The notes beneath the pieces are model-generated. The model had not been told where the DNA came from. It worked only from the letters and a program-made list of their open reading frames with translations, and did not search any database. A DNA stretch of 64,000 nucleotides from Planoprotostelium fungivorum (taxonomy: Eukaryota; Evosea; Variosea; Cavosteliida; Cavosteliaceae). The DNA is taken from the NCBI GenBank assembly GCA_003024175.1, contig MDYQ01000060.1, positions 39,289 through 103,288 on the forward strand, given 5' to 3'. Made by a program: the position numbers and the translations under genes. Below, piece after piece: positions 23,242 through 35,941 of this stretch (positions are counted from its first letter, which is position 1; the number at the start of each line of letters is the position of its first letter).

Positions 23242-24892
23242 ATGACGGAACACATCATCATCCAGACGGAGCCTGGGTATGCTTCAAGGGTGATCGAGTA
23301 TTTAGAGGAGTTGTACCAAATCCAACCAACAGATCAAGCCGATGTGATCAAATCGGGTGATACATCATCGATTCATCTTTCACACCTTCTAATCCCGTCA
23401 GGATCAACTAAATTCATCCGTTACCAACGAGTCAGTGATGAGACGCTGAGGAGCATCAATAAACATGGCATCCTAAATCGCTACATCATTCGAGTGTATC
23501 ACTCTCAAATGACTTTCGATTCGAACGATCAAGTGAGAGATCTTCGTCTCATCAATTCTAACCATCTTCCAGATCTATCAGTGGCTGCGCGATCACCTCC
23601 ACCATCAAGATAGGTGATGTGATTCAACGATCGCCGACTGAATTCCATACAGATCGTCACGTCTGCAGTGTTATCCCCCCCAAGACACCATGAAGCTGGG
23701 CGACCTACTCCTGTCGAGCATGGAGAAGGAGACAGAACAAAGATTGTCCAACGATCCACAACTATCACGTGTGAGTCGAACGGCTGCATCAGTCACGTGA
23801 TCGATTCCAGGAACAAGAATTTTCCAAGATTTATCCTAGACTGAGCCCCACGAATTTCACGCACATCATCTCCCTCTTGAAATGTGAAAACAGGTGAAAT
23901 CCATCCAGTTATCGATCTACAACTCTGTAGATGGATGTGCGGTGTATACGATAAAGATCTGTGGTACGAACCAGATTCCAGCGGAACGGTCACTCGTGAA
24001 GATGGAAAGATCAAGAAGACCAAAGTGAGCTCGTCTACACTTTTGTAGATCGACACCGACATCATCAGAACAAGAACACGAAACTGTCACCCGCCGTGGT
24101 GGAGGAAGAAGAGAGTGGAGAGAATGTCATATCGAGGGCTTATCACAAGCTGAGAGAATCCGTGGAGCGATTCTCCATCGGTAGAGGTCACTTGACGTCA
24201 TACATCCTGATCTGAAGACAGAAATCCCAACGGAATTCCTCGCTATAGACATCGGATCTTCACCTGGAGGTATGACACAATACTTGTCGAATCGACTAGT
24301 CGACAAGGTGAGATGTGATGTACGTGATTCTCTTGTGCTGATGTGATCGTGTAGAGCTCGCAATCGAAGGTTTTACCTCCTCTCACCATTGTAGAAGAAG
24401 GGTCAACGTTACCTACAGAGCAGGTGATGAGAGGATATATATCCACGAGCCATCGAGTGACTCGTTGTAGATGATCAGAACGGGTGCCGTCATCTCCATC
24501 GATCCCGCCAACCTCACTCTACCGTCGGCACCCGGCGTCTTTCATCTATCTACAATGGCTGAGAAGGCCATCTTGCAACTCAACAGTCTCCCCCCCGTTC
24601 ATTTGATCGTGTGTGACATCAACACGATACCTGAAGAGGCCATAGACATCATATCACCTTTCGTGTCTCTCATCGGGAGTGGTGGTGAGAAGCATCAAGA
24701 ACACGATCGACGTGACGATTGATGAGAATAGGTTGGCTGGTGTGGACCATCAAGAGGTACAGATCTGCAGTGCACGTAGAAGATGTCGTGGAGACATTCA
24801 AGAAGAGATTTGGAGGGGATTTCGATCACGTTTCTGTTAAGTGGCTGCTATCCAATAGACAGGAGAGGATGGTTGCTGCACGAAAAAGATAA
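23242..24892 (+). CDS. FtsJ-like RNA methyltransferase
   Basis: Exons from the ATG at 23242 give an N-terminal alpha/beta domain ('MTEHIIIQTEPGYASRVIEY', 'STKFIRYQRVSDETL') of about 100 residues. Short linking exons follow, then a Rossmann methyltransferase: 'ISRAYHKLRESVERF' (FtsJ 'SRA-YKL' helix), 'FLAIDIGSSPGGMTQYLS' (SAM motif I), 'GAVISIDPANLTLP' (motif II) and 'VHLIVCDIN' (catalytic-Asp strand). It ends '...SNRQERMVAARKR' at 24892. The SRAY-KL plus D-G-SPGG pattern is typical of FtsJ/RrmJ 2'-O-methyltransferases. The acceptor before motif I must be GAAGACAG for the frame to hold. The substrate is unknown; the N-terminal domain might be an RNA-binding module. Confidence 0.75.
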
Positions 24893-25620: not shown

Positions 25621-25699
25621 CTCGTTGTTTGTGTGTAATCGTTTTTTAGACGATTATCTTACATTTTCGTGTCTTTTGATTATTTGAACGGTGGACGAA

Positions 25700-25955
25700 A
25701 GTCAGCTTCAGTGCAATGCTGAATTCATCCGTGTAAGAGGCACCTTCGCAAGCTCCGGTGTTGACCCTCTCACCCGTGAGAAAAATTAATTTAGTCGGAT
25801 GCCCTGGAGTACCCAGGGCTATCAGTCGACTAAACTGATAAGAACAGATACTACACTGCGGCGATATTAGACGAGTTTAAGTGATGATGTATGATGATGA
25901 TGATCGAAATAGAAAGGGGCGTGCCTTGATCTAAGCTTTAAAAAGCCGAGAAGAT
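25700..25955 (-). ncRNA. U2: U2 spliceosomal snRNA gene, interrupted by an apparent intron
   Basis: Read on the minus strand from 25955, the 5' part is ATCTTCTCGGC (U6-pairing helix II) followed by stem-loop I and GATCAAG. A 69-nt insertion follows (25924-25856). The sequence then resumes with TGTAGTATCTGTTC and TTATCAGTTTAG, the near-invariant U2 core including the GTAGTA branch-point-recognition element. Stem II (TTTAGTCG/CGACTAAA enclosing GCCCTGG/CCAGGGC), an AATTTTTC Sm site, stem III (GTGAGAGG/CCTCTTAC) and stem-loop IV (TTCAG-CATTGCA-CTGAA) follow. Without the insertion the RNA is about 187 nt, essentially the length of human U2. All functional elements are intact, so it looks like a working gene. 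It is presumably transcribed by Pol II and modified post-transcriptionally. Confidence 0.92.
25856..25924 (-). other. Apparent 69-nt GC-AG intron inside the U2 snRNA gene
   Basis: It sits exactly between GATCAAG and TGTAGTATC of U2. It begins GCACGC and ends GCCGCAG, with a pyrimidine-rich start, ATCATCATCATCATACATC in the middle and a branch-point-like TCTAAT 12-14 nt before the AG. Length and content resemble the protein-gene introns of this window, apart from the GC donor. Removal restores the conserved U2 sequence without changing any base. Confidence 0.75.
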
Positions 25956-26289
25956 GCTTCCAGGGGTGCCCGCGGTCTCAGGTAGCCGTTAAGTTGACCG
26001 CGAAAAATTGTGGGCTCCGAATAACAACCCTCCGCCTCTGAAACGGCCCGGCATCACCTGTTTCAGCGTTAGAAAGAGGTTATAGACACTTCGAAAGGTT
26101 AGTGTGACTATATGGTTACCAGGATAATCGATATGATGGATGCATGTGAAAAGATGAGGAGATAGGATAGAAAGGAGTCAGGGATACTTACTCATGGATG
26201 GGAAGAGGTTGAGAGTCTCAAGAGGAAGGATCGATGGAAAATGGAAGAGCTTTCTCGAAGGTAGATGGATATATAGATATAGATACTCA

Positions 26290-26450
26290 TACCCTATCGC
26301 CCATACCTTGATCTAAGACAAGCCGGGGCGGAAAGAGGAAAGACCATGCGGTTGGGGTAGCGTGGTGCGCGCGCCGAGGCCCTTTTTGAAAAATGAAAAT
26401 TTTTCGCGCGCGCAGTCTTGTTTACAACTTTGAACTGATAAGAACAGATT
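26290..26450 (-). pseudogene. Rearranged U2 snRNA fragments
   Basis: Two pieces of U2 recur 380-600 bp from the gene. CTTAGATCAAG at 26317-26307 is the end of U2 stem I, followed by GTATGG, a canonical donor at the same position where the functional gene has its insertion. ATCTGTTCTTATCAGTT at 26449-26433 shares 17 nt with the U2 core but lacks GTAGTA. Their order is swapped relative to a normal gene, so they are remnants or an alternative 5' exon, not a second functional copy. Between them lies a hairpin with TGCGCGCG/CGCGCGCA arms (26366-26414). Confidence 0.6.
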
Positions 26451-26796: not shown

Positions 26797-28256
26797 TTAT
26801 TCCATCTCTACAATGACCGGGGCATATTCATCGTCTGAATCGAACTGTATCGTTGTCTTCTCTGCGAACGTCGAGCCAAAACGTTGGTGCAGATATTTTC
26901 TAAATTTCTTCGATCTCTTCTTCATCTTCTCTCCCAACTGGTCGTCATCAGTGATCTCGACGTAATTTCTCAGGATCTGCGTGAGAAAGTTGTCCGCCGA
27001 TAGACTGTCCTCGAAGAAGTCAGAAGGAACTTGTTTCAATTGAAAATGAAGAACGGCTGATCATCATCAGCTCATGATCACGATCGTGATGATGCAATAC
27101 TCACCGGAGAATTCGTAAAAAAATAAAGTGTTTGTAGATACGGCCGAATCACATTGACACAGAACACTGAGCAGCTTCTTCCACTGCTCGAACGCATCGT
27201 ATGATTGTCCCATGAGGAATACAACAAAGGCGAATTGGAGTTCACCCAGCAGTCCAAATTCTTCATCGAATCGATTCCTCAATTTTCTGTTGGTGATGAG
27301 ATCGAGAAGGATCATCGTGATGACTCACCGACATAGAGTTGACTTGTCAAAGTTTTGGATGTTAACGGAGCCGTTCATTTTACCGAGCTCTTTTGAAGTT
27401 GGGATGGAGGAAAATCTGTTTGTCATCAGATCCATCATGGAGGAGATGAATTCAAAATAGAGTTCAATGATTTTTGTTTGAATAAAGATCTTTAGAATGT
27501 TGCGTCTCACTTTGGACGGTAGCGTGTGGGGTCTTCATTAGAGGATGATACGACCACCGTACTCTGTTCCAATCGCTCCTTCTGTCCCTTCATGATCTGC
27601 TCCAGTTCTTTATCCGTCGTATCGTAGACAGAAGACATCCTCTTGGATGGTGATTCGAGATGATGCATCACGTGAGACGTGATGTACAGCGATAGAGTCT
27701 TCCAACGTTCGCTGTCTGAGGGATAAGGTCCCAGAAAACGATCGAAATCGAATTTACGGACGCCGTTGATATAGCGGGACACCTGAGGTTGATCAGATGT
27801 GACGACGACGATTGAAATATGGATCATTACTACCTCTTCCTGATCGAGCTCCTCGTCCAAGTCGTAATCCTCTGTGGAGGTATTCCATCTCAAAAGTCGA
27901 ACCTTTTTCTGGTCAGTTTCAACGTGATGAGATGATCCACTGACCTGACCTGGTTTGAGAAGCATGAATAGACTGGAACGAGGAGGACCGATTCCACCAT
28001 ATTTGGCACCAGCACTGCCCAGCATTAGATGCGATTGTGATCCTGATCATATCTTTGCGAAGATCGATCTCTCTTACCTGTAGAAAATGTAGTGGACTCC
28101 AGGTGGTATCAGCTTGATACCTTTGAAATTTGGACCCGTGGTGAATTCGTACTCGTCGATGCCAAACTCTGAGCTATTCGGGGTATCTAAACACAAGATG
28201 GTAGCACTGTTCTTATATTCATCAGAATCTGCAGACACGAAGGTTCTGTCGGACAT
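26797..28256 (-). CDS. AAR2: AAR2 splicing factor, U5 snRNP assembly
   Basis: Exons from the ATG at 28256: '[19 protein letters not shown]', then '[18 protein letters not shown]' (family: 'KFRGVKMIPPGIHFLHY'), '[17 protein letters not shown]', '[15 protein letters not shown]', '[17 protein letters not shown]', '[18 protein letters not shown]', '[15 protein letters not shown]', '[20 protein letters not shown]' and '[10 protein letters not shown]'. Every block aligns in order with human AAR2, so identification is firm. AAR2 holds the cytoplasmic PRP8-containing U5 particle before it is exchanged for BRR2. The protein is about 385 residues with six or more introns. It lies about 840 bp from the U2 snRNA gene, a suggestive but possibly chance neighbour. 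Confidence 0.93.
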
Positions 28257-32943: not shown

Positions 32944-35941
32944 TTACTCTTTATGTCGCATGATCTTGAGGAAAACTTCCTCCATTGACGCCTGCGATAT
33001 CCCCCACTCTTCGATGCCACTCTTCTCTCTGTCTCTCTTCATCTCCACGAAGATGCTCGACAAGTCCACGTCCTGCGTCGGGAGATAAAAGTGAGCCACG
33101 TTGCCAGACACGGGATCACGCACTGCCCTGGGATACTTCTCCATGACGTAGAGCTCTGCCTCCGCCAACTGCGAAGGACGAGCGGATATGGACAGCCGGT
33201 AACCTCTTCCATACTGCCTCTTCAACTCGAGAGGTGATCCCATGCAGACCAGAAGACCTGGTGACGTCAGATGACGTCATCACACTCTCTCCACCGTCGG
33301 CTACGATGGCAATCTTTGAGGCTAACACGTCGGCTTCTTCCATGTTATGAGTGGTCAGCACGATGGCTCGATCTCTCTTCAGCCTCTGAATAAGTTCCCA
33401 TATGCTTCTCCTCGTATCAGGATCTAACCCAGTGGTAGGTTCGTCTCTGTCATCAGGTCAACGAGGAGAATTTCATCTTTTCGACTCACAAGATGAGGCA
33501 TTTGGGGCTGCCGATCAGAGAAATAGCGATAGCCATTCGTCTCTTCATTCCCCCCGACAGAGCAGAACTTCTCTTCTTCTTCTCAGAGATCAACCCTACG
33601 AGAGAGAGGATTCGGTCCTGCGAATACCGCGTGAGATAGATGATGAGATTTCGATTCCATCTCACGCATTCCTCGTCTTCGTAGTACTTGCTGATTCCTT
33701 TGATACGGATGTAGAAGATGAGATGTTCTTCCACGGTCATCTCCTGCCATACGATCTCGCTCTGCGGGCAGAAACTGATGATGACGTCACTCACTAAACC
33801 TTAAAACCCGTGTGAGAGGTTGTACGCACCCCATGACCTTCCTGGCGGCGTGGATGTGAGTGAAGATGTCGTAACCAGCGATCGTGGCTGATCCTCCGGA
33901 AGGTGGTAGGATACCACATAAGATGTGAGCCAGTGTGCTCTTACCGGCTCCATTGGGACCCAAAAGTCCCAGGCATTCTCCATCGCTCAACGTCAACGAG
34001 ACACCCCTCAGCGCGATCTTTCCAGGGTATTTCTTCTGTTTTATCCGTTTAGAGTTCAATTTCGTCGTGATAAGATGGATCACTGACCTCGATGTTGTCT
34101 ACGACTAGGATGTCTCCATCTTCATGTGATGACGCACGACTCTTTAGAGGTGTCGTCTCTGTGATGCCACCCAGGAGAGAAGTACGATTTCCCATTCTCT
34201 TGTGACGAGTGAACAGATCGACCATGTGATAGATGGGAAATAAGAAGGGCTCCCGTGTGCCGTGATCTTGTGGTAAGATGTTGTGCAGATAGAGGGTGGC
34301 GAGGAAATTGATGATGGACATGCCGATCAGCCAGGCGTAGACCTGTCGATCGTCCGTCCATGTTACGCGATCAACAGATTTTCTTCACCTGAACTAACTC
34401 TCCATGCCAAATGTCTGAGAAGGAGAGGGCAGTTCGATTCGGATCTATGATGCTGGAAGAGATGACGAATACACCTCGAATCATTGAAAAAGGTGTGAGC
34501 CACATCAAGTAAGCTGGGGCTTCCATTGGAGTCACTTTGAGTGATTTCAGCTTCTTCAAATCATATCACATCAAATCACATCGATTTGATGTGATATGAT
34601 TTGATGTGATGTGATGTTATCGGATCGTGATCAAATCGTGAAGACTCACCCATCAGGTTGAGAAACACGAACCCCGCGGAGGATAGAGAGGACAAGGACA
34701 TGACGATTCCGGCCGTCCTGGGTTGAGAGAAGAACGCGGCACACATCATCCCGAACGTCGGCTGTGCGATGGAGCTCAAGAGGAGCAGAATGATGTAAGA
34801 GGCCACGTTGGGAAGGAAGAAGAAGGGAAGTTTGCATGACACACCGATGATGACGATGATGGTGGCAGTGATGACGTTCAAGATGAAAGAGAAGGCCAAG
34901 GTGGAAGTCCAATAGGCCGTCATACTCAGACCCATCTACACAATTGGAATCAGTTGGCATGAGATCATCGACTCACGATCTTCATCATCTCGATCGATCT
35001 CGTCTTCTTATCTACGACGATGACGTAGGTGAGAGAGGGTATGGACAACCACAGTAGAAAAGGTAAGACGAACAAGAAGATCGTGGTGATGACGGAAGCA
35101 CTGTCGGAATACTTTGAATCACCGGTGGACTTGTAGAACCCGTGATAACCTTTGATAGAGAAGGGTGGATTCGCGGGGCTGAAATAACGTAGAGTGTTCT
35201 GAGTCTGTGTGGGATCCGTACAATTTGCGTGGAGTACGTTAGTCGTACCTGCACGTGTGAGATCATGCGATCTGTCGTGCGACGCACCGAGGGTGGTGAA
35301 TAGACTAGACAGGAGCTGCAATTTCGTCTGTGTATTGCGGAATGTCCACGGGCTTTCAGCTGTGGGACGATGAGATCATGTGGGTTTTCTTCATCTCACC
35401 TGATTCGAACTGGAAGATGACAGAGAGCCTCGAATCATCGACTGAGAGATCACGGAAGATGAAGCCAAATAAGTCAGGCAATGATGTGTTAAGAAGACAC
35501 TGGTCGAAGTCTTCCGTCGTTCCATTGAAGAGACCGATTTGACTGATGGAACTTGGGAGAAATCCAGAAAATCCACGATCACGTCCACCCAGAATGACCT
35601 GTCTCGAATTGCGATCATCGATGTTTACTCCAAAGAGGCCACTTTGTGAATACGTGACTTGCCAAGTCAATTCATGAGATGGGGTTACAGTCCAACTTTC
35701 GTTCCTATGATTCCATAAAATGTATGCTGATATCATGGACATAATGAAGATGGGTGCGAACAATTGAACTCCTAGCGTATATTGTCTAATCTTAAGAATG
35801 TGAGAAATCTCTCGATGTCTTCCTCACCGATAAGATGAGGTTCTTCCGAGATAATGCCCTCAGATGAGACATGAAAGGCGTCCTGACGTCCATGAGAGGA
35901 GCTTCATATTCTAAACGAGGCTCCTCCGTGTTGTCCTCCAT
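32944..35941 (-). CDS. Half-size ABCA-type ABC transporter
   Basis: From the ATG at 35941, a short cytosolic start leads to a first membrane helix ('[18 protein letters not shown]') and a large luminal/extracellular loop. Five further helices follow (such as '[19 protein letters not shown]' and '[18 protein letters not shown]'). The ATP-binding domain comes next: Walker A '[12 protein letters not shown]', Q-loop region '[18 protein letters not shown]', signature '[13 protein letters not shown]', Walker B '[13 protein letters not shown]' and H-loop '[11 protein letters not shown]'. One TMD and one NBD of about 800 residues make this a half transporter of the ABCA/ABCH type, as found in Dictyostelium and plants. 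A likely lipid substrate is an inference from the family. One intron carries a 21-bp inverted repeat (34557-34603). Confidence 0.9.
34557..34603. repeat. 21-bp perfect inverted repeat with 5-nt loop
   Basis: CAAATCATATCACATCAAATC (34557-34577) is exactly complementary to 34583-34603, with ACATC between. It lies at an intron boundary region of the ABC transporter and would form a very stable hairpin in either transcript. Further GATGTGATGTGATG repeats follow to 34618. Confidence 0.9.

Follow-up and report, generated by a model that had tools for sequence, protein, structure and literature searches.

The window, that is, the whole 64-kb stretch of DNA analysed here, carries on its minus strand a U2 snRNA gene split into two pieces (25955-25686), recognised both by direct reading and by Rfam, and the existence of this split gene is confirmed. 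Exon 1 (25925-25955) corresponds to U2 nt 1-31 and contains stem-loop I; its sequence is ATCTTCTCGGCTTTTTAAAGCTTAGATCAAG, with the 3' end ...AGATCAAG. Exon 2 (25690-25855) starts from U2 nt 32, opens with TGTAGTATCTGTTCTTATCAG, and has an uncertain 3' end, the Rfam match reaching 25686. The 69 nt lying between them (25856-25924, same strand) are what we read as a GC-AG spliceosomal intron. One base past the insertion point lies the branch-recognition hexamer GTAGTA (25849-25854), and further downstream comes AATTTTT (25781-25787, nt 100 of the joined RNA, as numbered on its 201-nt form), which we take to be an Sm-like site. A previous sequence-only reading had placed all the U2 landmarks on the minus strand, and stem I, GAUCAAG, GUAGUA, the Sm site and the 3' stem-loops were indeed all found there.

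The upstream neighbour of the U2 gene, on the same strand, is an AAR2 gene, read from 28256 to 26797. Its N-terminal domain is recognised by Pfam (AAR2_1st, E 3.9e-9, on the ORF at 27510-28046), the remainder of the gene model being a reading of frames, and no PDB relative of this ORF was found. AAR2 is a U5 snRNP assembly factor. On the strand opposite to U2, a reading frame at 24185-24343 contains a short FtsJ-like stretch (E 0.0029, 18 bits, under the cut-off of 24.1). U2 thus seems to be its own unit between genes. The gene content of the window also includes RPN7, a GH71 protein with WSC, KIN17 and DUF547, a set that was judged compatible with a fungus, the density of introns prompting the guess of a basidiomycete. 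At 34556-34604 a short palindrome weakly matches a microRNA family, whichever strand is read (RF03652, 35.6 bits against a cut-off of 90).

Two further features were noted upstream of U2 on the minus strand. The first is a good-looking 134-nt intron (26191-26058, GTAAGT...CTAAC...CAG) between ATGA and GTGATGCC; read by eye, the joined sequence would encode an ORF of 27 codons that stops about 23 nt ahead of U2. The other is an exact 17-nt copy, in sense orientation, of U2 nt 38-54, ATCTGTTCTTATCAGTT, at 26449-26433; its score of 34 compares with 33 for the best of 200 shuffles, and it is also an 8.9-bit match to the U2 profile described below. It is preceded at 26462-26450 by AATCATCTAAAAA, resembling the 3' flank of U2, AATCGTCTAAAAA, at 25655-25643. 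The 17-mer and this flank may be what is left of a tandem copy of U2.

The Rfam family RF00004, whose search had been proposed as a check by the sequence-only reading, matches 25885-25686 with 80 bits (E 3.9e-14) against a gathering cut-off of 46. In this match the 5' end of the U2 model is forced onto the insert, and annotation can miss genes of this kind when intron sequence is placed where the true 5' end belongs. When 25925-25990 was searched alone, model positions 1-31 were matched at 25957-25925 with 22.5 bits (E 0.0023), a score under the family cut-off of 46 that belongs to a piece of only 31-33 nt, incomplete at its 3' end, where it reaches the end of the searched stretch. The start given by Rfam, 25957, is two bases ahead of ATC. 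Exactly 69 nt (25924-25856) lie between U2 nt 31 (G, 25925) and nt 32 (T, 25855) and, because the two model matches abut, exon 1 being U2 1-31 and exon 2 starting from 32, zero bases have been lost at the junction. This bears out the interruption at 25924-25856, with no base missing, that had been proposed from the sequence. In the joined RNA, GATCAAG is directly followed by TGTAGTATC, and GUAGUA starts at nt 33, its usual number in U2. The length of about 187 nt that had been expected after excision needs correction, as it is probably 10-14 nt short: because the Rfam match extends to 25686, the joined U2 would measure about 197-201 nt, its 3' end being unfixed. Within the 64-kb window, an Rfam search at E up to 2 found no second U2.

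That excision of the insert restores U2 exactly is supported, besides the Rfam positions, by scoring against a small three-sequence U2 profile built from human U2, locus L001, and loci L003 and L002 combined. The joined form reaches 66.6 bits over 3-185, whereas the unjoined form gives 46.4 bits, covering exon 2, and a match of its own for exon 1 at 5.0 bits. The three loci came from a genome-contig collection searched with a 22-nt U2 pattern; they lie on two contigs of bacterial MAGs with a eukaryote-like U2 that is unbroken at this site, L001 and L003 continuing through GATCAAGTGTAGTATC without interruption. They serve as comparators only. Locus L002 also has, near 785 on its minus strand, a U2 fragment, AAGATCAAGTGTAGTATCTGTTCTTATC, amid unrelated flanks, and the contig, filed as bacterial, bears a full U2 gene as well. 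In a viral-contig collection, neither a 26-nt U2 pattern nor the split-U2 pattern gave any match, and none of the eight loci matching an 18-nt U2 pattern continued as U2.

As for the insert itself, it opens with GCACGC (25919-25924, preceded by exon AAG), with GC in place of GT, and closes with TCTAATATCGCCGCAG, the last three bases being the 3' splice site CAG (25856-25858). A branch-like motif, TCTAAT (25866-25871), ends 10 nt short of that site. Inspection by eye gives no alternative placement that both restores U2 and has standard ends. Folded alone, the insert has an MFE of 0 kcal/mol and no predicted fold, all of 200 shuffles folding at least as well. Its signature (GT or GC start, AG end, CTRAY 8-12 nt before the end) is shared by 24 of the 127,862 69-mers on both strands of the window, or about 2 in 10,000, a figure that is a guide and not a test, the criteria having been chosen after the insert was seen. 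Gaps of 5, 6 and 7 nt between CTRAY and YAG occur 19, 25 and 16 times in the window, where 20 shuffles average 12.6, 11.8 and 10.3, and the gap in the U2 insert is 7 nt. When donor, branch and acceptor are combined, the counts do not clearly exceed those of shuffles, be it with GTRNGN (23 against 18.7) or with the GC donors GCRNGN (15 against 15.7) and GCACGN (1 against 2.3), so the case is carried by how exactly U2 is interrupted and not by the rarity of the motifs.

The idea of a spliceosomal intron in U2, as put forward by the sequence-only reading, thus holds up in the exact excision, the AG acceptor, the spacing of the branch-like motif, the length and the lack of a fold, and is weakened at the donor, whose GC and general weakness that reading left unmentioned. 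Known GC-AG introns tend toward an otherwise strong donor. This does not apply to AAG|GCACGC, which by eye departs from the consensus not only in its GC, but also in the C at +4 and +6. Such a weak donor could reflect inefficient or regulated splicing, a GT donor that has since decayed, or an error of one base in the sequencing.

A local yardstick was provided by 14 introns placed by hand from the reading frames of RPN7, KIN17 and AAR2, with RPN7 introns 4 and 5 and KIN17 intron 1 also bracketed by PDB alignments, and an unclear fourth AAR2 intron excluded. A scan of the reading frames had returned 984 raw candidate pairs, and the list thinned for overlaps held many doubtful entries. The 14 introns measure 39-95 nt, a range that includes the 69 nt of the U2 insert. 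All 14 start with GT, unlike the GC of the insert, and 11 have, by eye, G at +5. The strict CTRAY, also judged by eye, lies 9-13 nt before the end in 5 of the 14, and even YTRAN is absent from the searched range in four, so the branch motif is not universal in the window. AAR2 intron 1 has the identical TCTAAT hexamer, 9 nt before its end.

Outside the insert, several features favour a maintained U2 gene whose expression is predicted. The alignment to RF00004 takes in the whole of its model, the conserved 5' domain (stem I, GAUCAAG and GUAGUA) is in place, and the joined RNA has the Sm site AAUUUUU and the 3' stem-loops. Pairing in the joined RNA is complete in the upper arms of stem I (GCTT/AAGC, 4/4), in IIa and IIb (7/7 each) and in the outer part of IV (6/6), and nearly so in its inner part (5/6), the paired sequences differing from the human ones; the lower values for the lower part of stem I (2/3) and for III (6/10) come from registers set by hand, which were probably wrong. 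For the unspliced precursor, the predicted fold is better than that of every one of 200 shuffles (z -3.06). Exon 1, taken without its last 11 nt, resembles the 5' ends of human and L001 U2 (none of 2000 shuffles reaches the score), and its likeness to that of Saccharomyces cerevisiae is not above shuffles (275 of 2000).

These observations bear on the alternatives to a functional gene with an intron. The copy may be a disabled or minor one, silenced by the insertion or by decay of a GT donor while an intact U2 elsewhere does the work. The weak GC donor would fit this explanation, as would the 17-nt sense copy upstream, which suggests local duplication and loss of U2; nevertheless, we consider it improbable, since outside the insert the gene looks maintained, with its 80-bit match, its paired stems unlike those of human, and its exact junction. 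Far less probable is that the spliceosome does not splice the insert at all, which would either be kept in the mature RNA or be removed without rejoining, leaving a two-piece U2. The site does lie in a stretch drawn as single-stranded by the Rfam model, and split structural RNAs occur in other lineages. However, an intron is what the ends and the branch motif suggest, no fold is predicted for the insert itself, and at one base from GUAGUA either a split or a bulge of 69 nt would presumably sever or disturb the core strand.

The acceptor at 25856 might also be served by another exon. An alternative first exon upstream, CTTAGATCAAG, followed by GTATGG at 26317, would donate to it, the nearer exon being a relic. 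What recommends this arrangement is a 12-mer on the minus strand (26317-26306, CTTAGATCAAGG) that repeats without a mismatch the last bases of exon 1 and the G after them, and is succeeded by the donor-like GTATGG, which offers a GT donor. The similarity score of this 12-mer is 24, against a 95% level of 26 in shuffles. At E up to 10, nothing in the stretch 26307-26372 matches U2; past the shared 11 nt, its likeness to four U2 5' ends is reached by 523-723 of 2000 shuffles; and the implied intron of 451 nt is far over the 39-95 nt of the placed introns. A likeness to yeast U2 seen by eye was lost on shuffling, and the 12-mer was rejected as a first exon, which leaves this explanation with the slightest probability of all.

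In all likelihood, then, this is a working U2 gene, whose transcript would carry a single 69-nt GC-AG spliceosomal intron between U2 nt 31 and 32. We infer both the splicing and the function of this copy from its sequence. Pre-existing spliceosomes would act on the U2 precursor by way of its GC donor, its TCTAAT branch site and its CAG acceptor, and the joining of the exons would yield an ordinary U2 of the length given above. With an intron inside U2, cutting of the RNA would fall to the very machinery of which it is a part. As to its origin, the intron may have arrived by reverse splicing into a U2 held in the catalytic centre, an idea drawn from older work on U6 and U2. A more elaborate version, to which we give little credence, would make this the sole U2 gene, with the weak GC donor tying U2 maturation to the level of active spliceosomes, so that U2 would control its own supply, and with the site fixed where a lariat could reverse-splice into U2 paired in the core.

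Noncoding RNA genes are sometimes interrupted by spliceosomal introns, according to a passage of PMC2586383, which cites an mRNA-type intron in the U2 gene of Rhodotorula hasegawae (Takahashi et al. 1993, PMC360287). The present U2 intron is hence not the first, that of R. hasegawae (now Erythrobasidium hasegawianum) having been reported in 1993. Both are introns of the pre-mRNA type in a U2 gene, adjoining the branch-recognition region. The Rhodotorula intron is reported to be 60 bp long and to lie just downstream of the branch-recognition domain. The present one, in contrast, is 69 nt long, has a GC donor and lies one base upstream of GUAGUA; if the reported downstream position holds, the two sites would differ, and 31|32 would be a separate U2 insertion site.

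The introns of U6 lie near the catalytic centre, and the older literature explains them by reverse splicing. Those in fungal U6 snRNA genes (Canzler et al. 2016, PMC4829304, as cited in a passage of PMC5832005) are likewise spliceosomal introns in an snRNA, although in U6 and not in U2. Fungal U3 snoRNA genes, in turn, have pre-mRNA-type introns, broadly in Basidiomycota (same passage of PMC5832005), and resemble the present U2 in that the gene of a structured small RNA is interrupted; because U3 does not belong to the spliceosome, no self-dependence arises there, unlike in U2. A U2 intron at 31|32 is not named in the titles and abstract openings surveyed, an absence that says little, and introns of snRNA genes are absent from the passages considered of PMC5709842, PMC8283771, PMC5322907 and PMC2911113. 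If spliced and essential, this U2 would at once be produced by the splicing machine and belong to it, and a second apparent U2 insertion site by the catalytic core bears on whether snRNA introns arise via reverse splicing of lariats into the spliceosomes' own RNAs. Compared with these systems, the intron of the present U2 gene, probably a GC-AG spliceosomal one, is a known kind of oddity at an apparently new place.
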